A DNA stretch of 60,317 nucleotides from a virus: positions 1 to 60,317 of IMG/VR virus record IMGVR_UViG_3300044841_000118; one strand, 5' to 3'. The notes below the pieces were generated by a model, which searched no databases, was not told where the DNA came from, and worked only from the letters and a program-made list of their open reading frames with translations. Position 1 is the first letter of the stretch. Each line of letters begins with the position of its first letter. Shown piece after piece: positions 1-60,317 of the stretch. The position numbers were made by a program, and so were the translations under genes.

Positions 1-627
1 CAGGTGGAGTTGAGTACGCCTGAAATCGCCAACATGACGGCGGCGCACATCCTGCGAAAAGATCGTAATCACCTCAGCCACGAGGACAACAAGCAGGCCG
101 CGCGGTTGTTCAGAGACGCAGCCTACTACGTGGGCAACGATCCGATGATCACGGAAGCGCAGCAAGCTCTCGACCTCATCGAGAAAGCAATTGCGCGGTT
201 GGGAGCGACCATCGTTATCCTCGACAACCTGCACGCGCTCTGCCGAGGGGACAACGAGTTGCGCGACCAAGCATCCGCCAGCCGCCGTATCAAGACTATC
301 GCACAGAGAACAGGCACGAAGTGGGTGGTCGTCTGCCAGCCCCGGAAGGCCGACTCCAAGAACAAGGGCAAGACCCTCCACATCTCCGATATCAAAGGGG
401 CGGGAGCGATCATCGAGGACGCGGACGCACTCTTCACGATCCACCGTAACTATGTCCAGAATCCAGATCCCAATAACCCGCCCATGGACACCTACGAGCC
501 CGAGACAGAAATCCACTGTCTGAAGGCACGTACCAAGGCTGACGGCCCCACGTTCTCGAAGCTGTTCTTCCACGGGGCGCTCGCCACATACGCCGACATC
601 ACTCACATGGAACCTCCTCCGCAATGA
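1..627 (+). CDS. Replicative DNA helicase, DnaB/RecA-like ATPase C-terminal part (5' truncated by window edge)
   Basis: The reading frame is open from base 1, so the gene begins outside the window. What remains is the C-terminal half of a RecA-fold ATPase. A Walker B strand (TIVILDNLHAL) is followed by a DnaB-like glutamine motif (VVVCQPRKA) and the block DIKGAGAIIEDADALF, which matches the DnaB 'SGAIEQDAD' motif. The Walker A motif is missing because of the truncation. It probably unwinds DNA at the phage fork. Its stop codon overlaps the next start (ATGA), so it heads the coupled plus-strand replication operon. It could instead be another RecA-like phage ATPase. Confidence 0.75.
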   Translation, partial: QVELSTPEIANMTAAHILRKDRNHLSHEDNKQAARLFRDAAYYVGNDPMITEAQQALDLIEKAIARLGATIVILDNLHALCRGDNELRDQASASRRIKTIAQRTGTKWVVVCQPRKADSKNKGKTLHISDIKGAGAIIEDADALFTIHRNYVQNPDPNNPPMDTYEPETEIHCLKARTKADGPTFSKLFFHGALATYADITHMEPPPQ

Positions 628-1070: not shown

Positions 1071-1205
1071 ATGACACCAGAAACACAACAGCCGCCCCAG
1101 CGCGTGTGGACGAAGCCTGCGCTCACGATCCTCGCCCTTACCCGCGCCGAGCATGGCGCACACGGCGTCGGTGTGGACCACAGCCGTGCCCACCGCAGCG
1201 CCTGA
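1071..1205 (+). CDS. 44-aa peptide with WxxPA...RAEHG block (paralog of the peptide at 54419-54556)
   Basis: The ATG is at 1071, ten bases after the previous stop, and the peptide ends ten bases before the clamp start. It shares a block with the 45-aa product at 54.4 kb: Trp, then two residues, Pro-Ala, a hydrophobic residue, then ILA and RAEHG, followed by a Gly/His-rich tail ending in a basic HRS/HKS. The shared block and near-equal length show they are paralogs kept in two separate operons. The aromatic-x-x-Pro-x-(Leu/Ile) arrangement resembles leader peptides of lasso-type RiPP precursors, but no processing enzyme is visible. Function unknown. Confidence 0.6.
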   Translation: MTPETQQPPQRVWTKPALTILALTRAEHGAHGVGVDHSRAHRSA

Positions 1206-1215
1206 AAGGAACCGC

Positions 1216-2289
1216 TTGAACATCCCTGCCGCCACTCTCAAGTCCCTGCTGAAGAAACTCTCGTCCGTGCGCTCCGAACTGGTGCTGCTCGATACCGCCG
1301 CTGGCACGCTCTTCGCTGCGGACAATGACATCCGCCTCTGGGTAGAGTCGCCTGCACTGAAGGACGAGTCGGGCGCGGTACTCACGGTGAATGGCCGCCG
1401 GCTCTCCTCCGCCGTCAGCCGGCTCTCGGGCGTCCTCAGCGTGACCCACGGCAAGAAAGGTCTGACCGTCGCCTCCGCTAAGACGCGCTTCGACCTCGAA
1501 GTCACTCCCGGTAAGCTGGATCCCCGTACGGCTGAGAAGGGCGCGACCTACACGCTACCGCTGGCCGAAACCAAAGCGCTGCTCAAGGCTGGCGCCATCA
1601 TCACCCAGAAGGGTCACGCCTCCTACTCCGACATCGTCGAATTACGCGGCGACACGGTGCTGCGGGTTCGCGCGACCAACGAGCGGCGCCTCGCGGTGAT
1701 CTGGGGCGGCCCCTACGAAGGCGAGGCATTCCAGCACCTGATTCCCGTTTCGGTGATCGGCGCGCTGCAGGAGATCCCCGGCGAGTCAGCCGTGCTCACC
1801 GTCAGCGACGCCTTGGTCACGTTCTCGACTACCGACGACCAGGAGACCCGCGTCATCGTCTCCGCCCGCCGGTCGGCCAAGCAGTTCCCGGACTTCGACG
1901 GCATTCTCCCCAAGACCTTTGCCCATGAGGTCAAGGTGGATGCGGCCGCGATGCGCGAGGCACTGGCCCGTGTCGCCCCCTTCATCCCCGCCACCGACCT
2001 CAAGACCGTGCTGGTGACCTTCCCCGGCTCCGAGGTTCAGGTCTCAGCCAGCAACGGCGGTGTGGCAGTAGACGCCGTCCCGCAGATTGACCCGGCCAGC
2101 ACCGAGGACGACCCGTTCGCCGAGACCCCGGCCGCGCCGTACAGACTTCACATGAACCACACCTACCTGAGCGACTTCTTCCAGGCCGCGGAGGGCACGG
2201 TCACCATCGGGCTCAACACCCACCCCAAGCCTGTCTGGATGGACGCCGGGAAGACCAGCGCGCTGTTCACCCTCCAGGTTCCCGCCTAA
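1216..2289 (+). CDS. DNA polymerase III beta-like sliding clamp
   Basis: The most likely start is TTG at 1216, six bases after AAAGGA. An ATG at 1153 in the same frame lies inside the upstream peptide gene. The product is 357 residues, close to the 366 of bacterial DnaN, and shows the three-repeat clamp layout: an N-terminal IPAATLKSLLKKL helix, a central ATNERRLAVI segment (DnaN 'TDGHRLA' equivalent) and a C-terminal strand ending in ALFTLQVPA. It should form a ring that tethers a polymerase to DNA. It lies in the replication operon, so it probably serves a phage polymerase or competes with the host clamp. Confidence 0.8.
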   Translation: MNIPAATLKSLLKKLSSVRSELVLLDTAAGTLFAADNDIRLWVESPALKDESGAVLTVNGRRLSSAVSRLSGVLSVTHGKKGLTVASAKTRFDLEVTPGKLDPRTAEKGATYTLPLAETKALLKAGAIITQKGHASYSDIVELRGDTVLRVRATNERRLAVIWGGPYEGEAFQHLIPVSVIGALQEIPGESAVLTVSDALVTFSTTDDQETRVIVSARRSAKQFPDFDGILPKTFAHEVKVDAAAMREALARVAPFIPATDLKTVLVTFPGSEVQVSASNGGVAVDAVPQIDPASTEDDPFAETPAAPYRLHMNHTYLSDFFQAAEGTVTIGLNTHPKPVWMDAGKTSALFTLQVPA

Positions 2290-3583: not shown

Positions 3584-4250
3584 GGTTCTTCCCCCGGAGT
3601 CGCTTGCGATCATCGACCCGGCGGAGGTAGCGCGGCAGACGGTCGTCCAGTTACTGGACGACATCCGCGATCACGAGTACGAGCTGGCCGCCAACTACGC
3701 GCGGCTCGGCGCGGTGCTCTTCGACATCCGCCGCAACCAGTACTGGGACAAATGGGGCTACCTCAGTTTCGGCTCCTACATCCGGGAACTGGCGGACCGG
3801 GTACAGAAAGAGCGGTCACAACTCTACGCGTACATCGGCGTGGCGGAAAAACTTCTGCCGGAGGTAGACGAGCACACGCTGGTCGCGATCGGTATCACCA
3901 AGGCCGGCGAGCTCAAGCGCTTCGTCTCCCAGTCCGGCCGCCGCATTCCTGAGAAGCTGCTGCAGGTAGCGCTCGACGACAAGCGAACCGCCAAGGAACT
4001 GCGCGCCGCGGTGCTCGAAGAGTTGCACCAAGCACCAGACCCGGCGGGCAAGTATTACGAGATCGGCGGGTTCTTTTGCACACCTGATGAGAAGGCAGAG
4101 ATCGATCTGTCGATCCGGATAGCGAAGGGTTTGGATCCAGCTATTCCAAACAACATTCCAGAACATATGCAAATGAAAGAGGTCATGTTGAGGTGGGCGC
4201 GCGAGTTTATCGCCACTTGGCAGGAGGCATTTGAACGTGGAGGAGCTTGA
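3573..4250 (+). CDS. Putative DNA-binding/regulatory protein (DUF3102-like helical protein)
   Basis: Starts at TTG 3573 and overlaps the previous gene. The first 110 residues are helical and have the layout of phage 'Lys/Trp-rich single-turn' regulators: LGAVLFDIRRNQYW, then SFGSYIRELADRVQKERS, then a segment ending KLLPEV. This recalls DUF3102/ParB-like helical domains and is similar in style to the AT-hook protein at 59330-60043. No enzyme motif is visible. One copy of the 15-bp palindrome lies at 3645-3659 inside its 5' end. Confidence 0.5.
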   Translation: MLVEVLPPESLAIIDPAEVARQTVVQLLDDIRDHEYELAANYARLGAVLFDIRRNQYWDKWGYLSFGSYIRELADRVQKERSQLYAYIGVAEKLLPEVDEHTLVAIGITKAGELKRFVSQSGRRIPEKLLQVALDDKRTAKELRAAVLEELHQAPDPAGKYYEIGGFFCTPDEKAEIDLSIRIAKGLDPAIPNNIPEHMQMKEVMLRWAREFIATWQEAFERGGA

Positions 4251-7204: not shown

Positions 7205-7471
7205 ATGCCCTCCAAGACACCCCTGAAGCTCAACGGCAAGCCGCTCGAGCCTTCGAACAAGCAGCGCATCCAGCAGGTGATCGCTTCGATCCCGCACGGC
7301 CATCTGCTCTCGACGGCTGAGATTGCCAAACAGGCCGGCGTGCACACCAACGACATGGCCATGAATCACCCGGATTTCCAGGCGCACAAAAGGAAGCACG
7401 TAAATCGCTTGGTTTGGGGTGGCAAAAAAACCATCGACCAGTACGACCAGCAGATGAGCGAGGGTAAATAG
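7205..7471 (+). CDS. Putative winged-helix-like DNA-binding protein (88 aa)
   Basis: The segment QRIQQVIASIPHGHLLSTAE, then IAKQAGVHTNDMA, fits a helix-turn-helix: helix, turn at AGVH, recognition helix. The stop TAG shares a base with the GTG start of the metallophosphoesterase. It could regulate the operon. No family name is claimed. Confidence 0.4.
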   Translation: MPSKTPLKLNGKPLEPSNKQRIQQVIASIPHGHLLSTAEIAKQAGVHTNDMAMNHPDFQAHKRKHVNRLVWGGKKTIDQYDQQMSEGK

Positions 7472-8652
7472 TGCCTACCACCATTGCAGAACTGAAGCAG
7501 CGCCAGGACGAGAAGGACGCCGCCGGAGCCAAGCTCGGCGAGCAGCACGAAGTCACCGGCAACACATGGGAAGTGTCCATCCCTCGGACGCGCATCTGCA
7601 CTCTGGAGCAGTTGGTCGAACACTGCAAGATCGATCTAAACACCTGGACCGTTAAGAGGTTCGTCGCCAATAAGTGGGAGGTTGGTGCCAAGAACCCGGA
7701 CTCCGGCAAGATCGAGGTCGAGCCGCTCTTCCAGATCAAGGCGTTTCTAGAGCGCCGGGTCGAGGTCGCTGACGCTGTCCAGGAACTGGACGAGTTGAAG
7801 CGGAAGGCTAAGCTCAGCGCAAAACCCTGGGTGTCGATAGATCGGAAGATTTCTCTGCCCTCCGGCAACATGCTTGAGGTCAATCTGCCCGATTTACACG
7901 CGGGCAAACTTGCATGGCAGCAGGAAACTGGCGGCCCGAACTATGACACCAAGATAGCGATCAAAGGGTACTGGGATGCCTTCAACACTCTGCTATCTCG
8001 CGTGAAGCATTTCGAGTTTGAGCAGGTGCTATTCGTGGTCGGCAACGACCTGTTGAACTCCGATGACACAGAAGGGCGCACCAACGCCGGCACACAAGTC
8101 TCCACGGATGTCCGCTACCAGAAGACCTTCGGTACTGTTCGGGACACGATGATTGAGTCGATAGAACGCCTTCGGCGCATCGCTCCGGTCAAGGTGGTAA
8201 TGGTTCCGGGAAATCACGACAAGCTGTCGGTCTGGCATCTTGGCGACTCCCTGGAGTGCTACTTCCACAAGTACGAAGACGTGGAAATCGACAACCGACC
8301 GCGTCAGCGCAAATACCATCAGTTCGGCCTCGTCGGTCTCATGTTCTACCACGGTAACAAGGGGAAGAAGGCAGACTACCCCCTAACCATGGCAACCGAG
8401 ATGCGGAAGATGTTCGGCGCCACCAAGTTCAACGAGTGCCATACCGGACACCTTCACAAATCATGGGCCGACGAATTTCACGGGGTCATCGTCCGTATCC
8501 TGAGCGCGCTCTGCCCCGCCGACGCTTGGCATTCGGAGAACAACTTTATCGGTAACCAGCGTACGGCCGAAGCCTTTGTCTGGAACAAGGACGAAGGGCT
8601 CATCACTATCGCGAGATACACGGCAACCGAAGAAGACGAGGAAGTCGCATGA
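7471..8652 (+). CDS. Calcineurin-like metallophosphoesterase
   Basis: GTG 7471 follows GAGGG. The 393-residue protein has the metallophosphoesterase signatures: PDLHAGKL (DxH), VVGNDLLNSDD (GNxxN-like, in place of GDxxD), VPGNHD (GNHD/E), and near the C-terminus HTGHLHKSW (GHxH). The first 130 residues are helical and charged. Phage members of this group are thought to act as nucleases or phosphodiesterases in DNA metabolism. The stop overlaps the next start (ATGA). One 15-bp palindrome copy lies at 7777-7791. Confidence 0.7.
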   Translation: MPTTIAELKQRQDEKDAAGAKLGEQHEVTGNTWEVSIPRTRICTLEQLVEHCKIDLNTWTVKRFVANKWEVGAKNPDSGKIEVEPLFQIKAFLERRVEVADAVQELDELKRKAKLSAKPWVSIDRKISLPSGNMLEVNLPDLHAGKLAWQQETGGPNYDTKIAIKGYWDAFNTLLSRVKHFEFEQVLFVVGNDLLNSDDTEGRTNAGTQVSTDVRYQKTFGTVRDTMIESIERLRRIAPVKVVMVPGNHDKLSVWHLGDSLECYFHKYEDVEIDNRPRQRKYHQFGLVGLMFYHGNKGKKADYPLTMATEMRKMFGATKFNECHTGHLHKSWADEFHGVIVRILSALCPADAWHSENNFIGNQRTAEAFVWNKDEGLITIARYTATEEDEEVA

Positions 8653-12608: not shown

Positions 12609-13805
12609 ATGGCTAACCGAACCTGCACCCTGATGCTCTACTGCCGCACCGAGAACGGGTGGCGCCGCTTCCCTGCCGCCTTTGGCAAGAACGGGCGCAT
12701 CCGGCCCAACTACGCCGAGGTCGCAGGCGAGCAGGTCCACTTCGATACCGCGCGGTACGAGATCCGCTTCTACGCTGGCCGCAAGGTCCAGTTCAAAGCC
12801 GTCCAGGGAAGCGCAAAGGACGCGCTGGCAGCCCGCCGCCGGCAGGAGGCTCTGCTAGTCGCCCGGGACTCGGCCAAGGCCTCTGGGGCCACCCTGGTCG
12901 AGAATGAGCCCACCCGGAAGAAGCTGACGCAGGAGAAGCAGCGCTGGCTTGAGGGGCTGGAGGCCCGCGGAAAAGCCGAGTTCATCAAGACCGCGCGGGT
13001 GGCGATCGACGACTTTCTGGCCGCCACGGAACTGATCTACGCCGACCAGATCACCGCAGACGCCATGCTGGTCTTCTACCGGGTTCTGCGGAAGCGCGGC
13101 AACTCGGCGCGCACCCTCTACAACAAGGTGATCAACCTCTCCGCCTGGTTCAAGGACATGGGGCTGGAGGTCAAGTCCATCGTCAAGCACAAACCGGTCT
13201 ACACAGAGCGGGAGGTCGACGTCTACAGCCCCGAAGAGATCGGCGACCTGTTCCGCGCCTGCCGCAACGACTACCAGCGCGCGCTGTTCGACGTGCTGCT
13301 CAAGGCCGGGCTGCGCGAGCAGGAGGCGGTCAATCTGGAGTGGACGAACGTCGACTTCCGGGCCAAGGTGCTCCGCGTCCGCGAGAACGTACAAACCGGG
13401 TCATCCATCAAGGACCGGGCCGAGAGATCCGTCCCTATGCCTGACAGTCTGATCGAGTCATTGCGCGCCTGGCGGGAGAAAAGGCCCAAGGCACACCTCG
13501 TCCTCGGCACCGCGACCGACCGGCCCAACAACAAGATGCTGCGGACGCTGAAGCGGGTGGTCAGCGCGGCTAAGCTCAACTGCGGTCGCTGCGATGGGTG
13601 CACCACCCGGGACGAGTGCCGCCGCTGGCGCCTGCACAAGTTCCGGGCCACCTACACCACCCGCCTGCTGCAGAACGGGGTCGATGCCCGAACGGTCATG
13701 GCCTACACGGGGCACGCGGATTTAGCGACCGTGCTGCGCTATCTGGCGCCGGCGGAGGACGCCCCGATGCAGTCCAGGATCAGCAGCATCGAATGGGTGC
13801 GGTAG
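12609..13805 (+). CDS. int: Tyrosine-type site-specific integrase
   Basis: ATG 12609 follows GAAGGAGA. The 398-residue protein has an N-terminal SAM-like arm (about 100-200) and a C-terminal catalytic domain. Visible catalytic residues are Arg in AGLREQEAVNLEW, His-x-x-Arg in RLHKFRATYTTRLL, GHA and Tyr in VLRYLAP. Just before the HxxR box lies a four-cysteine insertion (CGRCDGC...DEC) that could bind zinc. It recombines attP with the tRNA-Ser attB. Downstream genes are on the opposite strand and converge on it. Confidence 0.9.
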   Translation: MANRTCTLMLYCRTENGWRRFPAAFGKNGRIRPNYAEVAGEQVHFDTARYEIRFYAGRKVQFKAVQGSAKDALAARRRQEALLVARDSAKASGATLVENEPTRKKLTQEKQRWLEGLEARGKAEFIKTARVAIDDFLAATELIYADQITADAMLVFYRVLRKRGNSARTLYNKVINLSAWFKDMGLEVKSIVKHKPVYTEREVDVYSPEEIGDLFRACRNDYQRALFDVLLKAGLREQEAVNLEWTNVDFRAKVLRVRENVQTGSSIKDRAERSVPMPDSLIESLRAWREKRPKAHLVLGTATDRPNNKMLRTLKRVVSAAKLNCGRCDGCTTRDECRRWRLHKFRATYTTRLLQNGVDARTVMAYTGHADLATVLRYLAPAEDAPMQSRISSIEWVR

Positions 13806-41470: not shown

Positions 41471-43546
41471 CTACAGCGCGCTTCCGGCTCCTGAGCCGCC
41501 CGGTTCACCGGTCAGGGTGATGGGGCCGGCAGATGCTTCAATGGCGTGTCGAAGAACCTCGCGCGCGGCGCGCGCCATATTCTCCTGATCGGCCAGTTCT
41601 TCCTTGCGGTCGAACGAGTGATCCTGCAACTGCTGCATCGCCTGAGCTTTGGCTGCTGCGGCGGCCGCCGGCGAATCCGCCTGCGAGCGTTGCAGTTCTT
41701 CGGGGGTCATATCCACGATGACGTCGTAGTAGTTGCGCCATTCGCTGGTCTCGAAGAACATGCGCAGGACTTCCTGCATATTCACCTTCTTGCCGGCAAC
41801 CATGAGTTGCTGCGTGACCGAAGGCTGGGAGAGGAACTGTGTGATGATCGGCAGCGACTGCGCCATCGCGCGCCGTGCCTGCATCTTCGCTCCGGCAGAG
41901 ATCGAGAAGCGCACTTGCGCGTTCAGAAGATCGATCACCGTGCCGCCTGAAGCCAGATACTCGTGCTCGAGCTCGTCGTTCAGGATGTCGCGAATGCTGG
42001 AGACTGGCAGGAGAGCCTTGTCCATCTCCATTGCACGGAAGACGAAAGGCAGAAATACCTGGGTCGAAAACTTCTCGACGAAATCACCTGTCCGGTTACT
42101 GGACCCGGCTGACAGCAGACTTGCGCCGGCGGCGGTGCGGGCCAGGTTGGAGTGCCCGGAGGCTCCGGCTACACCGGATGTGCCTGCGTCGCCCGCGCCG
42201 GAGACAAGGTCAACTCGTCCCTGCGACATGGAGATGTGGGCTCCGGCTTCGGGAACAGCCGGGGTACGGGGCAGCGGCGCGAAACCGTTGGGCTCGTCAA
42301 CTTCGATGATCTTGCCCGGCGCGATGCGGATGGACTGCGTCGGAACGTTTTTGCCGCGGACGCGGACGAAGACGCCGTTCAGGTTCAGCGCGGCCTGGTC
42401 GAGCCAGACGTTGGTGATGCCCTGCTGCAGCCGCTGCTCGGATCCGATCAGCTTGCCGAGGCCCATGCCGTGGAAGGCTTCGGGCACATCCCACCAGTTG
42501 ACGCTCAGGTAGGGGATTACGCCGTAGGGGTTCTCGGTATTGCAGATGACCAACTTCTTCTGCAGGACGACGATGTATTTGTCGTTGTCCCAGCGCTCGA
42601 GCACTTCGAGCGGCTCGTTGAAGGGGTCAATCGTGGTGGTCTCGTACGCCGGCTTGGCCTGCTGTACGGCGGTGCCCATCGCAGTTTCGACGGACCCGGT
42701 GTCCTGCTCCGGCTCCTCCCGCGGCGGGAAGAAAAGCATGATCAGCTTTTCCTTCGGCGGAATCGTGAAGCCGGGACGATCGCGGAGTTTGTCCAGATCG
42801 TCGAATGTCATGTACATCCGCTCGACGACGTACTTCGCCTTGCGGATGTCGGGCTTGTCCAGCCCGGGGTCAACCATCACGCGGCCAAGGTTGACGATGT
42901 GCTCGAAGAACGGGCGATCGATCTGTTCCTCGACCGGCTCTATTTCAATGTCGTCACTCTCGATGGTGATCGGAGAGGCGTTCGGGTTACCGGTCGGGTC
43001 CGGAATCTGGATAGGCTGATTCGGCCGGACGTACAGTTTGCGCTTGCGGGTGTAAGACTCCCAACCCCACTTCCAGATGCCGGTGCCGTAAAGCGCGGCC
43101 TGGTGAATGCCGAGCCGGCACTCTTCGCGGAAGTTGATGTCTTCCAACTGGAACGCGAGCAGGGCGGACCATGCGCGGGCAGCCTGCGCGGTTGTCTTCG
43201 GCCGCTGCTGCACCATAAACGGAGGGGACTCGTAGAAGAGCCCGTTCATGATCTGGGGCACCAGTCCGTTGACGGCGGTGGCCAGGGTGTAGAAGGGGAC
43301 GTTGGCGCGCTCAACTTGCGTGCCTTCCCAGTTACGTGTCCCGTAGGGGGACTGGTACAGGGTGGAGGCGACGGTCCAACCGTTCACCCACTGCTTTGAC
43401 TTCTCATATGACTCAGCGCGCGCCGCGTCCTGCACCACCATGCGAAGCGCAGGGTCGTCGTCCCACACTCCCGTGCGGAGGAACTTCTTCGCTTCGTCTG
43501 GAGTGAGAGGGGCTTGCGGGTTGGGGCTTTTGGTCTCGAGCAGCAC
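41471..43546 (-). CDS. Portal protein (T7-like head-to-tail connector, 691 aa)
   Basis: The large size and position between holin-like/terminase genes and scaffold fit a T7-like portal. Visible features: a helical N-terminal wing, GIHQAALYGTGIWKWGWESY, PGLDKPDIRKAKYVVERMYM, the block EAFHGMGLGKLIGSEQRLQQ that forms the stem helix region, and a long Ala/Gln-rich C-terminal helix (barrel). It forms the dodecameric ring through which DNA enters. The start appears to be GTG at 43546. Confidence 0.75.
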   Translation of the reverse strand: MLLETKSPNPQAPLTPDEAKKFLRTGVWDDDPALRMVVQDAARAESYEKSKQWVNGWTVASTLYQSPYGTRNWEGTQVERANVPFYTLATAVNGLVPQIMNGLFYESPPFMVQQRPKTTAQAARAWSALLAFQLEDINFREECRLGIHQAALYGTGIWKWGWESYTRKRKLYVRPNQPIQIPDPTGNPNASPITIESDDIEIEPVEEQIDRPFFEHIVNLGRVMVDPGLDKPDIRKAKYVVERMYMTFDDLDKLRDRPGFTIPPKEKLIMLFFPPREEPEQDTGSVETAMGTAVQQAKPAYETTTIDPFNEPLEVLERWDNDKYIVVLQKKLVICNTENPYGVIPYLSVNWWDVPEAFHGMGLGKLIGSEQRLQQGITNVWLDQAALNLNGVFVRVRGKNVPTQSIRIAPGKIIEVDEPNGFAPLPRTPAVPEAGAHISMSQGRVDLVSGAGDAGTSGVAGASGHSNLARTAAGASLLSAGSSNRTGDFVEKFSTQVFLPFVFRAMEMDKALLPVSSIRDILNDELEHEYLASGGTVIDLLNAQVRFSISAGAKMQARRAMAQSLPIITQFLSQPSVTQQLMVAGKKVNMQEVLRMFFETSEWRNYYDVIVDMTPEELQRSQADSPAAAAAAKAQAMQQLQDHSFDRKEELADQENMARAAREVLRHAIEASAGPITLTGEPGGSGAGSAL

Positions 43547-44396: not shown

Positions 44397-46382
44397 TTAT
44401 CCCCACATGCCGCCACCGAGGATGCTCGGCATACCAGGGCTCGGGGTCTCCGCATAGCACTCCGGCTCCGGCTCGAGGATTTCCTGAATCATCTGCATCG
44501 GGTTGCCCATACCAAGGCGCCCAAATGCATCCGCCGGCATCTCGCTCTCGGTCAGGTACGGTCCGTAGAGCAGGTTGTACTCCGGATCGATCACCACCTG
44601 CTGATCGCGCGGCGTGTCGGAAGCGGCAAGTAGCATCTGCGGAGCGTACCGCGGCTGCTGCGAGATTACGTCCGGGATGTCGTTGTGGCCAGAGTTGGAC
44701 AGGCAACGCTCGAACTCGTCGTAGAGGGTCTCGAGATGTGGCAGGTAGTTCGCCAGTTTCAGGCGGTCGTGGACGAACCAGGAGTGTAGCGCCGCCATCC
44801 GGATCTTCTTCGCACCCTTCTGGTTGTCCGGTGTGAACCAGTCGATACGCGCGCAGATCGAAATCACGTACGGGTCGTTCGTCGCCCGGGCGTGCATCAT
44901 GATCGCGGTGTGGATGAGCTCGGACCCGGCGGCTTTCTCGATGCCGATGATTGACGGCTTCCACTTCCGGGCGAACTCAACCACGGCCTTCGCCAGGTCA
45001 TCCGGCTTGTACCTCTGGCGCAACAGATCATGCACACACATGGTGCCGTCCGGTTTCCAGACGACGGAGGCCGCCGTGCTGAAATCCCGATTCTTCTTTT
45101 CTGAGAACGCGAAGTCCCACACCTGGGTGATCACGCCGCGCTCCGGCATATCGGTCGGCGGGATGGTGTTCTTCAGCAGCAGCGGGCGATCGAAGGTGAC
45201 CTCCGACGCTGGCCGCGGATTCTGGTTCATCTGCCCTTCGAAGAGGGCTTCGTCCATGGACAGGATCTCCATCAGGTAGGAGAAGTCCATGTACTTCGGC
45301 ATCAGGAACACGCATCCATCCGGACCGGCTTCCTGATACGTCACCGCTCGACCTTCCTGCTCGAGCTTCGCCACAACTTCTGGCTTTATCTGGACGGCCT
45401 TCGCAATGAGGATGAGACTCTTCGCTGCCCGGTTCGTCGTCAGAACCCAGCCAGGGCCACGCTCCTCCTCCACCACACCGACGCTGTTGATCTCGATCTC
45501 GCGGCCATGATGGTCGGCGTCGTGGTAGCGCGTGCCGATGTCGTCGAAGTACCCTTTTGGGACAAGCGTGCGCTTACGAAGGATGATCGCCTTCGAGACC
45601 TTCTTGCACTGCTCTTCGTTCTCGGAGTTGCGGTCAGAGACTCCGTCGTCCGTCTTGATGAGCTCGAAGTGCCAGCCGGCCGCGGTCGAGGTGACCGACG
45701 ATGCGAAGACGGTAGGCTCTTTGCGCTTGATCTGCTTGGCTGCCCACACGGGGCAGGTGAACTCGAACTGGTTGCCGAGGTTCTTCTCCTCTACACAGAA
45801 CTCGGGGAAGAAGAGGTTCATCATTGTGGGCGCGTCCGTCTTGATGACGAAGTGCCCCTTCAACTCGTCGAGCAGACCCATGGCGAGGTCGTCGGCGGCG
45901 GTCAGGAACCAGATGCGGATGGCCGGGAAGTTAAGGATCCACTGGACCGCGTCGATCACGTCACACGTGGACTTGAGCCCGCCGCGGGGCCAGAGTAGGA
46001 CGCGCGTCTTGAACTCGCTCTGCTCGAGCATTGGCTTGCTGTCGTCTTTCTGGACAAACAGCTTGCGGCACATCACCCCGTGACTCTCTTCGGTAATGCG
46101 GTTGTCGCTGATCGGCTTCCACCCTTCGTGGTGAGCCATCGTCTCCCAGCAGAAGAACCCCGCGAGGAAGATCAGGTCCTGCTTCGAGCGGCGCCGCACT
46201 TCTTTCCCCAAAGGGGAACTGGGGATCTTGTCGACCCCCAGCTTGGCGAAATTGATCAGGTCGGGCCGGAACGAGTCGAGGAACCCGTAGAGCACATCGT
46301 TTGGAATCGCTTGCGCGGACCCGTACGACTCGATCATCTCCTGGAACGGGTTGCTTTCCGTTGTCGTGTTACTGGACACCAT
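44397..46382 (-). CDS. Terminase large subunit (ATPase-nuclease), 661 aa
   Basis: ATG 46382 follows AAGGA and overlaps the upstream stop by 14 bases; a longer in-frame start at 46496 would overlap by over 120. The N-terminal ATPase half has a P-loop-like LLWPRGGLKST (an R/GGLKS variant), an acidic ELIKTDDGVSD and TRYHDADHH (C-motif region). The C-terminal RNase H-like nuclease has VWDFAFSEKKNRDF, IIGIEKAAGS. This motor packages DNA. The Walker A departs from GxxGxGK(S/T) in a way seen in many terminases. Confidence 0.8.
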   Translation of the reverse strand: MVSSNTTTESNPFQEMIESYGSAQAIPNDVLYGFLDSFRPDLINFAKLGVDKIPSSPLGKEVRRRSKQDLIFLAGFFCWETMAHHEGWKPISDNRITEESHGVMCRKLFVQKDDSKPMLEQSEFKTRVLLWPRGGLKSTCDVIDAVQWILNFPAIRIWFLTAADDLAMGLLDELKGHFVIKTDAPTMMNLFFPEFCVEEKNLGNQFEFTCPVWAAKQIKRKEPTVFASSVTSTAAGWHFELIKTDDGVSDRNSENEEQCKKVSKAIILRKRTLVPKGYFDDIGTRYHDADHHGREIEINSVGVVEEERGPGWVLTTNRAAKSLILIAKAVQIKPEVVAKLEQEGRAVTYQEAGPDGCVFLMPKYMDFSYLMEILSMDEALFEGQMNQNPRPASEVTFDRPLLLKNTIPPTDMPERGVITQVWDFAFSEKKNRDFSTAASVVWKPDGTMCVHDLLRQRYKPDDLAKAVVEFARKWKPSIIGIEKAAGSELIHTAIMMHARATNDPYVISICARIDWFTPDNQKGAKKIRMAALHSWFVHDRLKLANYLPHLETLYDEFERCLSNSGHNDIPDVISQQPRYAPQMLLAASDTPRDQQVVIDPEYNLLYGPYLTESEMPADAFGRLGMGNPMQMIQEILEPEPECYAETPSPGMPSILGGGMWG

Positions 46383-46656
46383 CGAGGCCGCGTTCCTTGC
46401 AGTTGTATGGGCCGGAGCATCCGGGTAGCGTGCACTTGACTTCGTTCTGATCGACGGCGCAGTCGGACGGCTCAGGCTGAGGCGACGCAGAGACAACGCT
46501 CTTCGCCCACGCTGCCGCGAACTCGTTGACCGCGACCTTGCGCGCGGTGTTCAGCGCGTCGACCACATCGTTCGCGCGCACCAGCGTCGACTTGCCGTCC
46601 TTGAAGACGATGTTGTAGAGCTTGGACCCGTCTGGTGTAGCTGGTGAATACCCCAT
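46369..46656 (-). CDS. Hypothetical protein (95 aa), possible terminase partner
   Basis: Ends inside the terminase 5' end. The first half is an alpha/beta region (YNIVFKDGKSTLVRANDVVD), the C-terminal half has four cysteines (CAVDQ, CTLPGC, NCKE). The position before the large terminase suggests a small-terminase role, but no HTH is visible. Unknown. Confidence 0.45.
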   Translation of the reverse strand: MGYSPATPDGSKLYNIVFKDGKSTLVRANDVVDALNTARKVAVNEFAAAWAKSVVSASPQPEPSDCAVDQNEVKCTLPGCSGPYNCKERGLDGVQ

Positions 46657-57488: not shown

Positions 57489-57634
57489 GCGACCCGAGCA
57501 AGCCTGACGCCCCGGAGGGTGCTTTCCTTCCCTCCGACGCGCCAGCGCTGCCACTGATAGACCGTGTGGTAGGTTGGCTGGAGAAGATCGATGCGGCGAC
57601 TGAACCGTTGTTGCCAGATGAGGAGGAGGCTTGA
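57485..57634 (+). CDS. Small acidic protein (49 aa)
   Basis: ATG 57485 overlaps the previous stop, and its TGA overlaps the next TTG start. Short, with a hydrophobic segment LPLIDRVVGWLEKI and an acidic tail (PDEEEA). No family recognised. Confidence 0.45.
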   Translation: MSDPSKPDAPEGAFLPSDAPALPLIDRVVGWLEKIDAATEPLLPDEEEA

Positions 57635-57951
57635 ACCGACCGAAGACCCGCGAAGAGTGGGCCGCGCTGCTTGAGACCTTCCCGGAAGAGCTCGGCGACC
57701 TGCTGATCAGTGCTGGGCAGAAGATGCGCGGGCGACTCTACCCCGGCGGGCGGTCGCCTGTGCTGAAGCCCTGTCCGAAATGTGGAGAGTCGTACTCCGC
57801 GCGCGAACTCCGCACACATCAGCGACAGTGTGGCGCCCATCTAGTACCGTGCAAGTTCTGCGGGCGGAAGTGGGGAGCGGCTGGCATCTATCTGCACGAG
57901 GTCCGCTGCTCCGAGAATCCGAACCGCAAAGAGAAAAAGGCCACCCGGTGA
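57631..57951 (+). CDS. Zinc-finger-type protein (106 aa)
   Basis: TTG 57631 overlaps the upstream stop (TTGA). Two finger-like units follow: CPKCGESYSARELRTHQRQC and CKFCGRKWGAAGIYLHEVRC. Each has two Cys and a His, Cys arrangement (C2HC-type). A basic tail ends EKKATR. It likely binds DNA or RNA. The last codons form part of the terminator hairpin. Confidence 0.55.
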   Translation: MNRPKTREEWAALLETFPEELGDLLISAGQKMRGRLYPGGRSPVLKPCPKCGESYSARELRTHQRQCGAHLVPCKFCGRKWGAAGIYLHEVRCSENPNRKEKKATR

Positions 57952-57962
57952 AGGATGGCCTT
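57937..57962 (-). terminator. Terminator of the minus-strand small-gene operon, overlapping the end of the converging plus gene
   Basis: AAGGCCA and TGGCCTT pair around a twelve-base loop. On the minus strand the stem is followed by TTTCTCTTT, a good rho-independent terminator. The loop shares CACCCGGTGA with the hairpin at 13820-13843. Confidence 0.65.
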
Positions 57963-58005
57963 ACTGGGAGATTTCATCAAGAACCGCGCGGCGACTCTCC
58001 CTGGT

Positions 58006-58188
58006 TCACACCTTGTACAACTTTCGTCTCTCTGGGTACTGCTTGAGGTAAGCGGCGATCCGTTCCGGATGCTGCACTGACAGCCGTTTGGTCTTGTGAT
58101 CCCGGCAGACCAGGCCGGCCGGCTGGTGGCATCTCGGGCACTCGACGTGGGTCATTGCGTCCGTGTTGAGCATGCCGGTCACAACCAT
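58006..58188 (-). CDS. Small zinc-finger protein (60 aa)
   Basis: The motif CPRCHQPAGLVCRDHKTK with later His is a compact treble-clef-like zinc finger, common in phage and actinobacterial small proteins. The start may be the internal Met (MTHVECP) at 58155. Converges with the plus-strand operon. Confidence 0.5.
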   Translation of the reverse strand: MVVTGMLNTDAMTHVECPRCHQPAGLVCRDHKTKRLSVQHPERIAAYLKQYPERRKLYKV

Positions 58189-58200
58189 CGTACCGCTAGC

Positions 58201-58314
58201 TTACTCGTACCACACGGCCATCTCTTGGTGGATTCTGGCTCTCCACTCAGATTGATAGACCGAGTCGAACCGCATGCGTAACCGCCACGCCCACTCCTTC
58301 AGTTTCTCTAGCAT
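58201..58314 (-). CDS. Very small hypothetical protein (37 aa)
   Basis: Trp- and Arg-rich short peptide (LKEWAWRLRMRFDSV). It is packed between the zinc-finger and 65-aa genes. Coding support is weak. Confidence 0.35.
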   Translation of the reverse strand: MLEKLKEWAWRLRMRFDSVYQSEWRARIHQEMAVWYE

Positions 58315-58319
58315 TTTCC

Positions 58320-58517
58320 TCACCCCAGGATAGAAGCTGATTGCGCCTTGGCGCGGCGCTTGCGGCTCTCGTTCGAGCGGTCCCCTAGTTTCGTCTTCAG
58401 CATCTCAAGCAGCTGTTTGGCTGCGTCCAGGCGCTGGTCCGTGGTGTACTTGCCGGCCTTGTCCTCGGCGATCGAGATCAGAACGCGGCGCAACCGCTGT
58501 GGCGTTGAGGCGGCCAC
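58320..58517 (-). CDS. Small basic helical protein (65 aa)
   Basis: A charged helix with TTDQRLDAAKQLLEMLKTKL followed by a basic segment RSNESRKRRAKAQ, the pattern of small phage DNA-binding proteins. GTG 58517, overlapping the previous stop. No HTH is obvious. Confidence 0.45.
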   Translation of the reverse strand: MAASTPQRLRRVLISIAEDKAGKYTTDQRLDAAKQLLEMLKTKLGDRSNESRKRRAKAQSASILG

Positions 58518-58628
58518 TTACTGCGCATCCAGTTTCTGGACAGCCAGCTGATTCTTCGGCCCACCCCAAGATAGTTCCGAACCGGAATCATCACTTAGGG
58601 CGTCGAGATTGATCAACGAGGCGGTCAT
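58518..58628 (-). CDS. Very small acidic protein (36 aa)
   Basis: ATG 58628 overlaps the membrane-protein stop (ATGA). Contains a one-mismatch palindrome copy (58527-58541) within its 3' end. Short and acidic, no family. Confidence 0.35.
   Translation of the reverse strand: MTASLINLDALSDDSGSELSWGGPKNQLAVQKLDAQ
58527..58541. promoter_or_regulatory. 15-bp palindrome site (one mismatch)
   Basis: ATCCAGTTTCTGGAC, one base off the consensus. It lies within a 36-codon ORF, near the start of the next minus-strand gene (58517). Confidence 0.5.
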
Positions 58629-58849
58629 GTCGTCTTAGAACCCCAAACGATCTTTGGCAGCACGGAGATGCTACCCCAATACATTTCCACGTATTCCGCA
58701 GGGCGCAATTTACCTGTAACAGCGAAGTCGAGAACGCTTGCGGCCAGAAAGAGAGGCCAGACCATCACGGCGAAGAACAAACCAGGCAGAGCGGCCAGCG
58801 GTGTGAGCAGTACGCGGAGGGTCAACTGGAGTAGACGGCGGATGGTCAT
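58625..58849 (-). CDS. Small membrane protein (74 aa)
   Basis: The frame holds a long hydrophobic stretch, about residues 8-42 (LTLRVLLTPLAALPGLFFAV followed by MVWPLFLAAS), so one or two membrane passes are likely. It begins the four-gene minus-strand operon that ends at the terminator 57937. Function unknown. Confidence 0.5.
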   Translation of the reverse strand: MTIRRLLQLTLRVLLTPLAALPGLFFAVMVWPLFLAASVLDFAVTGKLRPAEYVEMYWGSISVLPKIVWGSKTT

Positions 58850-58882
58850 GGGAGGGGTGCTGGTAGTTAAGATGCGGATTGC

Positions 58883-59089
58883 TGAGAAAAATTAACATAC
58901 TTTTTCTCAATCGTTGTCCGCGTCTTGCGCGTCCTAAACCAAACCAAAACCTATACCAAACCTAAACCTAAACCCTACGGGCATCTTCCGGGATTATCCG
59001 GGAGACTCCGGGAGAACTGTAAGCTCCACAAAACACACGGCTTGCTGCAGGGGGTATCACAAAGGTAACTAAATTGTCTCTAAATTGTC
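58883..59089. promoter_or_regulatory. Repeat-rich regulatory or origin-like region
   Basis: Within about 200 bases lie: an inverted repeat TGAGAAAAA/TTTTTCTCA (58883-58909, nine-base spacer); a tract of CCTAAAC-like repeats (58933-58977); three exact TCCGGGA repeats at 58987, 58997 and 59007, each 10 bases apart; and two CTAAATTGTC repeats at 59069 and 59080, 11 bases apart. Phased repeats suggest cooperative protein binding, as at replication iterons or multi-site operators. No ORF fits here. Confidence 0.6.
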
Positions 59090-59115
59090 ATTTTCGCGTT
59101 TATGATGTGCTCTCA

Positions 59116-59295
59116 ATGACCAAAACGAAGGGCGGCAAGGTGCCGCAATGCCCTATCCATGGGCGGGATCTGGTGTGCCCGTCTTGTGCAGCAATCGAAC
59201 GGGGCCGGAAGGGCGGGGAGAAGACCTCCGCCGAAAAAGCGAAAACCGCGCGGGAGAACGCGGCCAAAGCTCGTAAGAAACGGCACCCGAAGTGA
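59116..59295 (+). CDS. Small basic zinc-ribbon protein (59 aa)
   Basis: ATG 59116 is preferred over the longer frame. A candidate -10 box (TATGAT) lies 10 bases upstream and there is no Shine-Dalgarno site, so the message may be leaderless. The protein has CPIHG and CPSC followed by a Lys/Ala-rich tail (KKRHPK). Located just after the iteron-like repeats, it may be a DNA-binding regulator. Confidence 0.5.
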   Translation: MTKTKGGKVPQCPIHGRDLVCPSCAAIERGRKGGEKTSAEKAKTARENAAKARKKRHPK

Positions 59296-59329
59296 AGCCG
59301 GGCGGGTCTGTCTCCAACCCGCCCAACCC

Positions 59330-60043
59330 CTACGCGGCTTCTTCTTCTTCTACTTTGCGTGGGCGGCCGCGCTTGGCCCGTACGCCTTCGGCGATCGCAA
59401 TCGGCTCGAAACTCTGCCGGTTAGATATCCCCATTGCGGTCATCAACATGCCCACGTGTGCGTCAAGAAACGCTTTCCGTGCTTTGTGGCTGCGGGGCAG
59501 ACGCTTGACGCGGCTGTCCACAAACCGGAAGCACTCGAGCTCGATACGGTCCAGGCTGTACGTTCTCTCTTGCAGGTAATGCTCTTTGCGGAACTGGACG
59601 ACCTTGTCCAGGTAGTCGTGAACTTTCTTCGGATCTTGCGTCTTGGGCGGTGGCAGCGCAGCAACCGCTTCCGTGAAACGACCAAGGGGGCGCTCCTCAT
59701 TCGTCCCCATCATGTCCAGGCCCCGAGACATCGCTGCCAGCAAGTAAATCTCCGGCAGGTTGGCCTTCGCGTTCTCGAACCCGTTCATTAAGTTGTAGGC
59801 AGTCTTGCGGTCAAAGCGGATCTCGTCCAGAAAACGGACGAACACCCCCTTGGGCTGCAGGATTTCGCGGATGCGGACCAGCCGCTCCCCGATTGCCATG
59901 CGTGCCCGCCCGAAGTTGACCATGTCACTGCCTAAACCTTTGGTCTCCTTCTCAAGCGTGGCGCGTTCCTTTGGATCGAGTTCCCCCAGGTGGTCGATCA
60001 CCGCTTCGAAGTTCGTCAATGTGATGTCTGTGTTCTTCATCAT
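59330..60043 (-). CDS. Putative transcription regulator with AT-hook, divergent from the right operon
   Basis: The 237-residue protein has a helical N-terminal two thirds (LGSDMVNFGRARMAIGERL, FLDEIRFDRKTAYNLMNGFE) of DUF3102-like style, similar in type to the product of 3573-4250, and ends KRGRPRKVEEEEAA, an AT-hook with an acidic tail. It is transcribed away from the plus-strand gene at 60280, as repressor genes often are. It could be the phage repressor, but no HTH is recognised. A palindrome copy (59825-59839) lies inside it. Confidence 0.55.
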   Translation of the reverse strand: MMKNTDITLTNFEAVIDHLGELDPKERATLEKETKGLGSDMVNFGRARMAIGERLVRIREILQPKGVFVRFLDEIRFDRKTAYNLMNGFENAKANLPEIYLLAAMSRGLDMMGTNEERPLGRFTEAVAALPPPKTQDPKKVHDYLDKVVQFRKEHYLQERTYSLDRIELECFRFVDSRVKRLPRSHKARKAFLDAHVGMLMTAMGISNRQSFEPIAIAEGVRAKRGRPRKVEEEEAA

Positions 60044-60206
60044 AAGATGTAGTCGTTACGCCATTCCCCTTTCCCTTTTTGGTAGCAAAGCGAAGATAGC
60101 ACATATGCTTTGTCTCCGCGCAATGACTTTTCTACCATCTTTGTGCCAAATAGGGATTACCCCTTTGGTTGTACACAGCATGGTAAATATTAGCTTGCAT
60201 TATTTC

Positions 60207-60235
60207 TTGACACGGCACTTTTTACGCCCTACCTT
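60207..60235 (+). promoter_or_regulatory. Strong plus-strand promoter at the right edge (P4)
   Basis: TTGACA at 60207-60212 and TACCTT at 60230-60235 with a 17-base spacer. It faces the gene starting at 60280, whose 5' end is the only part in the window. Probably the early promoter of an operon leading out of the window. Confidence 0.65.
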
Positions 60236-60279
60236 GTACTTACAAATTCAGTTCCAAAGGGCCGTAAATACAAACCCCC

Positions 60280-60317
60280 ATGACTGTTCCCCCCTATTTT
60301 TCGAAGCGCTTTGAAAA
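60280..60317 (+). CDS. Partial ORF running off the right edge
   Basis: ATG 60280 opens an uninterrupted frame (MTVPPYFSKRFE...) 45 bases after the P4 -10 box. Only 12 codons are visible, so no function can be given. If the genome is circular or circularly permuted, this operon may continue into the left edge of the window. Confidence 0.45.
   Translation, partial: MTVPPYFSKRFE

Follow-up and report, generated by a model that had tools for sequence, protein, structure and literature searches.

Three described systems are closest to the locus considered here. Phage SPP1 has one origin, oriL, inside gene 38; its other origin, the intergenic oriR, is some 13 kb distant on the circular map, and gp38 binds both (PMC6316719). 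The origin of phage lambda lies inside the O gene and consists of four 19-bp inverted-repeat iterons, which bind O dimers, and a 40-bp A+T-rich region (PMC5043065). Origins of iteron plasmids have repeats in phase with the helical turn beside the opening region, and these iterons bind initiator monomers (PMC5043065). The cassette of phased palindromes and a G-rich tract described below is, judging from its sequence and from its relatives, very likely a detached iteron-type replication origin of a temperate phage, lying apart from the initiator gene.

The window, that is, the whole stretch of DNA that was analysed, is one complete viral record of 60,317 bp, linear and without end repeats. The phage is temperate and uncultured, and it is probably soil-dwelling. 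Its genes include those for an integrase (12609-13805), an exonuclease (7471-8652), a portal/head-tail protein (41471-43546), TerL (44397-46496) and several endonucleases VII. The DNA polymerase processivity factor, or clamp (1153..2289, plus strand), belongs to the same replication module as a DnaB-type replicative helicase, of which only the C-terminal part is present (1..627, plus strand). Since base 1 cuts the helicase gene, the genome is incomplete. The distance from the DNA polymerase to the initiator is 16-18 kb in relatives, and thus the record may lack a considerable part of the genome. Terminase relatives among sequenced bacteria were found only in two Acidobacteriota MAGs; the lineage is one of uncultured phages, probably of acidobacterial hosts. 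The region had no DNA matches among 50,697 deposited phage records.

The original prediction placed iteron-like repeats, interpreted as a candidate replication origin or multi-site operator, in a non-coding segment near the right end of the record. Every element it listed was found in its place, and no ORF of at least 50 aa covers 58911-59073. The core of the segment is an array of three iterons, palindromic heptamers TCCSGGA with a step of exactly 10 bp (58987-58993, 58997-59003 and 59007-59013, assigned to the minus strand). They read TCCGGGA on the plus strand and TCCCGGA on the minus strand, each being a palindrome about its central base (TCC-S-GGA), and the same element occurs in relatives. 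The array thus has short repeats at regular helical-turn spacing, and TCCGGGA is the sole 7-mer of the whole window with three copies at a fixed spacing of 7-40 bp. No three-copy fixed-step 7-mer arrays were observed in 20 random 60-kb sequences of the same composition or in 500 shuffles of the segment.

The plus-strand C/A tract next to the array (58933-58974) is, on the minus strand, a G-rich GGTTTA/GGTTTG tract. This C-free GG-block tract GGGTTTAGGTTTAGGTTTGGTATAGGTTTTGGTTTGGTTTAGG (58933..58975, minus strand) is a candidate opening or helicase-loading region. It is connected to the iterons by a joint (58976..58986; AGATGCCCGTA on the minus strand), of which GGAAGATGC is kept in the related record G023, and continues into a flank GGTTTAGGACGCGCAAGACGC (58919..58932, minus strand), kept in G023 as GGTTTAGGACGTGCGAGAGAC. 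Read along the minus strand, the segment forms a cassette of two parts, the three TCCSGGA with their 10-bp step and, after a gap of about 12 bp, the GG-block C-free tract (GGTTTAGGTTTAGGTTTGG...). The iterons and the tract form one unit oriented along that strand. The tract has about twice as many GG blocks as shuffled tracts, and no single-strand secondary structure was predicted for its strand by a method that does not consider quadruplexes. TnnT, the motif of the DnaD recognition element (PMC10201434), was also considered in the tract and rejected, as its counts overall are not above the shuffled expectation.

AT-rich DNA with a weak duplex lies on both sides of the core, whereas the conserved neighbour of the iterons is the GG tract. 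On one side, 58870-58910 ranks at the 99.8th percentile for duplex weakness and contains an AT-rich inverted repeat TGAGAAAAATTAACATACTTTTTCTCA (58883-58894/58898-58909, no strand assigned) with 12-nt arms that are 92% complementary, possibly an auxiliary unwinding or protein site. On the other side, 40 bp from the iterons, 59055..59094 (no strand assigned) has the lowest duplex stability of any 40-mer in the record and contains two copies of CTAAATTGTC, starting at 59069 and 59080, 11 bp apart. This may be an unwinding element, the promoter region of the zinc-ribbon gene, or both. The CTAAATTGTC pair is less special than the TCCGGGA array and only mildly unusual: 10-mer pairs at spacings of 10-40 occur a few times per random 60 kb, although only 5 of the 500 segment shuffles gave one. 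No exact CTAAATTGTC pair was found in viral contigs. Comparison with G023 showed no sequence conservation in either AT-rich flank, the weakest duplex included. Of the originally predicted elements, therefore, the TCCGGGA array and the tract next to it are conserved, whereas G023 shares neither the CTAAATTGTC pair nor the inverted repeat in its exact form, and both are best assigned to AT-rich or promoter DNA outside the conserved core. The GC skew of the window tracks the coding strand, and its maximum at 58170 is near the segment by happenstance. A structured RNA was also considered and rejected; the Rfam search gave one sub-threshold match, outside the segment.

We scanned 2.9 million viral contigs for three TCCGGGA at 10 bp and obtained 25 stretches, the chance expectation, estimated from the likely size of the collection, being well under one. 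In seven of them (L014, L022, L025, L028, L033, L036, L038) the array lies inside an initiator-type ORF; PHROGs assigned six of these ORFs to replication initiation proteins, and that of L022 has a DnaT DNA-binding domain. Since 10 is not divisible by three, codon repetition does not explain the spacing of the repeats, which are conserved as DNA. Other initiator families (L022, L028, L033, L036, L038, L043), of the phrog_270/9474/16167 and DnaT types, have TCCGGGA arrays with this step too, accompanied by C/T-rich or G/A-rich tracts; several initiator families thus use the same iteron letters.

L014 resembles the window closely in sequence, having the C/A tract, GGGCATNT and TCCGGGATTATCCGGGA. 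The two-copy pattern TCCGGGATTATCCGGGA was tried as a search pattern and discarded, as its matches were mostly in unrelated coding DNA. L014-type initiators are encoded at 24 viral loci, about 1.5-7 kb upstream of DnaB in relatives, and DnaB is followed by the clamp and nucleases in the same order as at the left end of the window. Given this order, the window phage probably encodes an L014-type initiator in the missing stretch. At most of these loci the linker DNA carries short, mostly palindromic repeats with a step of 10-12 bp and, after them, a tract that lacks C or is GG-rich and has a GG block every 5-6 bases. The place of the cassette is the same in about a dozen related phages: the linker of the winged-helix initiator, predicted to be disordered, or the gap of a split initiator gene. 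The reading frame runs uninterrupted through the cassette in L014, L061, L062 and L065; it stops at the iterons in L063, L064, L068, L069, L070 and L083, where the C-terminal domain is in another or a re-started frame. The split genes consist of an N-terminal winged-helix ORF and a C-terminal ORF, with the break at the cassette. In L069 and L070 the cassette is non-coding, because the C-terminal domain is a separate ORF with its own ATG. In the predicted structure of the L061 initiator, a winged helix is followed by a disordered linker, which coincides exactly with the cassette, and then by a helical C-terminus. The best Foldseek matches of its N-terminus are winged-helix regulators (PerR, MecI, BlaI, HlyU), with high probability and weak E-values; by protein, this initiator had no matches among the 50,697 deposited phage records.

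The letters of the iterons vary among these phages (TCCSGGA, TCTWAGA, TCCTAGGA), while the dyad symmetry and the step are kept. The window and L069 have an exact 20-mer TCCCGGAGTCTCCCGGATAA in common. In the 1.37 Mb examined, the tract motif is present only at such cassettes, and a combined test for iterons and tract gave no matches in 603 kb of random sequence. Five long relatives (G012-G016) have exactly one TCCSGGA pair per record, within the initiator gene. The cassette is therefore linked to a replication initiator gene in relatives, inside it or in its split; in the window the initiator gene is outside the record. In G002, G007 and G008, which belong to the same lineage and have the initiator, the search revealed no recognisable cassette, and in 396 Acidobacteriota genomes the cassette pattern had one match, lacking the tract.

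A second scan, for iterons with the GG tract, yielded 13 stretches, of which five (L092, L096, L097, L099, L100) were set aside for want of a tract. One of the others, L094, is in record G023 (48,154 bp), which is syntenic with the window over most of its length at about 40-70% protein identity. It was recovered through the cassette pattern only; no relatives were found among viral contigs through the 59330 protein or the clamp. As in the window, the G023 cassette is not part of an initiator gene, and it occupies the corresponding intergenic slot, the gene order being the 59330 homologue (47%), the zinc-ribbon gene (65%), the cassette, and homologues of 58320 (43%), 57631 (52%) and 58006 (42%). 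The alignment retains the iterons, the joint GGAAGATGC, the tract and GGTTTAGGACGYGCRAGA, whereas the upstream side has drifted. All three iterons in G023 have a flipped central base, and one step is 11 or 12 rather than 10; changed centres with retained symmetry would be the pattern left by selection on a dyad-symmetric site. The original prediction would have failed had the repeats not been conserved; in fact, the site is kept in the same slot with the same architecture amid drifted surroundings. This detached form was found in two phages only, the window and G023.

Beyond the position corresponding to the end of the window, G023 has an ECF-type sigma factor followed by a phage DNA polymerase (phrog_17, E 1e-51), which places the cassette at the edge of a replication module. 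The sigma factor gene (L105, 2095-2715 of the G023 locus), situated between the putative origin region and the polymerase gene, suggests phage-specific transcription of the replication module. In the window, a conserved TTGACA-containing stretch (60201..60225, plus strand) is upstream of the 59330 gene and reads off the right end, toward where G023 has the sigma and polymerase genes. The strand of the cassette is opposite to that of DnaB, and thus the cassette is distinct from the in-gene copy that one would expect to precede the DnaB gene. No initiator was found in G023, itself a fragment.

The minus strand of the window, read through two stops, gives SRSLPDNPGRCP*GLGLGLV, resembling the coding linker of L014, SRIIPDNPGTCPEGLVLDW. 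This resemblance could mean that the site is a relic or a decoy, a non-functional copy of an initiator-gene origin that was left by recombination or was retained as a means of titrating a competing phage's initiator; plasmids bearing an origin are known to exclude lambdoid phages (PMC3349717), a precedent for the decoy. We consider this very unlikely. A relic would decay, whereas G023 keeps the symmetry, the step and the tract at the same place with changed central bases. Moreover, no initiator-domain remnants were found on either side of the window cassette, the weak match being of the linker-like stretch alone, and the site adjoins the phage's own replication genes.

Other repeats in the window have the appearance of regulatory sites. 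A dispersed 15-bp palindrome GTCCAGWWWCTGGAC has 43 sites with at most 3 mismatches, against 3.6 expected (for example at 3645, 7777, 21390, 38047, 53680, 55065, 57053, 58527 and 59825). The sites are intergenic in the early region and inside genes elsewhere, the palindrome is also enriched in G002, G007 and G023, and the whole looks like a stoperator-like multi-site repressor system. The segment itself was rejected as a part of it: GTCCAGWWWCTGGAC sites flank it at 58527 and 59516, and none is within. The early region also contains three promoter-like sites, at about 53750, 54600 and 55920, of the form TTGACA/GTGACA-N16-TAYTCT with TGTGC before the -10 box in all; similar stretches occur in G023.

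That the segment is a multi-site transcription operator of the zinc-ribbon or the 58625 gene, rather than an origin, seems highly improbable. It does lie between divergent small genes, and the two CTAAATTGTC copies are just upstream of the zinc-ribbon gene. However, the likely operator of this phage is the different, genome-wide palindrome GTCCAGWWWCTGGAC, the other occurrences of the cassette are in initiator genes, CTAAATTGTC is not conserved, and no sigma-70-type promoter was scored in 57900-60317. As to the original alternative of origin or operator, comparison with the relatives thus strongly favours the origin.

Two neighbouring genes stay beside the cassette in both phages with the detached form. 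One encodes a 59-aa zinc-ribbon-like protein (CPIHGRDLVCPSC; 59116..59295, plus strand). The other encodes the 237-aa protein 59330 (59330..60043, minus strand), with a weak DUF3102-like match and an AT-hook-like C-terminal GRPRK motif. The small genes 57631-57951, 58006-58188 and 58320-58517, two of which have zinc-finger matches (zf-C2HC_2, Phage_zn_bind_8), also adjoin the putative origin and are all kept in G023. The zinc-ribbon gene, proposed to encode the protein that binds the repeats, is conserved with the cassette, but by analogy with the relatives a phage winged-helix initiator is the likelier binding protein. Alternatively, the origin is real and its initiator is 59330, with or without the zinc-ribbon protein, in a plasmid-like module that took over the iterons. 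Such a module would account for 59330 flanking the detached cassette and not being found in relatives with the in-gene one, yet it is unlikely: elsewhere the TCCSGGA specificity goes with winged-helix initiators, 59330 had no Rep family match, and its predicted structure was of low confidence and not interpretable. No plasmid Rep family was recognised near the cassette, and the single match of 59330 among the 396 Acidobacteriota genomes covered 60 residues within a long frame, at a marginal E-value.

Another possibility is a two-origin system as in SPP1, with one cassette in the unseen initiator gene and the detached one serving as a second origin or as a fork barrier triggering the switch to concatemer replication. 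Binding of both oriL and the intergenic oriR by gp38 (PMC6316719) provides a model for it, and the initiator gene of the window is indeed outside the record. Nevertheless we do not regard it as probable, since G012-G016, with the in-gene cassette, have a single site each.

The reading of the cassette as a detached origin rests on several observations taken together. The same combination of iterons and GG tract sits in the linker or split of the relatives' initiator genes, and in G023 it is kept detached in the same slot despite drift. The DNA polymerase gene of G023 lies just past the window end, and in relatives the L014-type initiator precedes the DnaB gene that the window cuts. The iterons are 40 bp away from the least stable 40-bp duplex in the record, the tract motif is confined to cassettes, and each of the five long relatives has one TCCSGGA pair. 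Against this reading, the initiator is outside the window record and was not found in the G023 fragment, G002 and G007/G008 have the initiator with no recognisable cassette, the conserved tract is not AT-rich, the GC skew is uninformative, and the detached form is known from two phages only.

From the observed cassette, its single copy per record, its placement in initiator genes, its detached slot shared by two phages and the neighbouring replication genes, we infer binding, opening, loading and initiation, as well as an initiator of the relatives' type in the missing part of the contig. The origin would comprise 58919-59013 and the AT-rich DNA on both sides. A phage-encoded winged-helix initiator would bind the three TCCSGGA palindromes, its dimers probably stacking along a single face of the DNA helix. 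The bound initiator may then strain the DNA so that the structure-free GG tract, the AT-rich flank, or both open. The C-terminal part of the initiator could hand over the phage DnaB-type helicase at the opened DNA, and the phage clamp and DNA polymerase would follow the helicase. A bolder version, quite unlikely in our opinion, is a movable origin cassette of phased palindromic heptamers and a telomere-like (GGTTTA)n strand, in which opening would depend on the G-rich strand (e.g. through G-quadruplexes or a strand-specific binder) and not on AT-richness, and which could separate from the initiator gene and rely instead on another DNA-binding protein (59330 together with the zinc-ribbon protein).

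If the cassette is an origin, it provides a sequence signature for replication origins of an uncultured, probably acidobacterial phage lineage. It also provides a natural series in which one origin is found within the initiator gene, between the two parts of a split initiator, or entirely apart from it, so that one could test what makes phages retain their origins within initiator genes and what follows when they do not. A further testable question is the GG-block tract, rather than an AT-rich box, as the conserved neighbour of the iterons.

The best reading, by analogy, is that the cassette works like the origins of lambda and SPP1. SPP1 resembles the window and its relatives in having direct repeats for a phage initiator, with one in-gene and one intergenic origin (PMC6316719), initiator binding being predicted here; both SPP1 and the window phage encode a DnaB-type helicase (PMC6316719). 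However, SPP1 has both sites, whereas the window shows the detached site only, with the initiator gene outside the record, and the SPP1 origins have an AT-rich unwinding element where the cassette has the GG-block tract as the conserved neighbour of the repeats. Lambda and the relatives both have a palindromic iteron array inside the initiator gene, in the relatives within its linker, next to an opening region (a candidate one in the relatives, where dimer binding is proposed), whereas in the window the three 7-bp palindromes, with their 10-bp step, and the C-free GG tract are not part of an initiator gene. Iteron plasmids, like the window, have helical-phase repeats adjoining the opening region, here a candidate one; the units in the window, however, are short palindromes with no recognised plasmid Rep family in their vicinity. 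Compared with lambda and SPP1, the distinguishing features of this putative origin are the short palindromes at a 10-bp step, a GG-block tract where those origins have an AT-rich box, and the position apart from the initiator gene.
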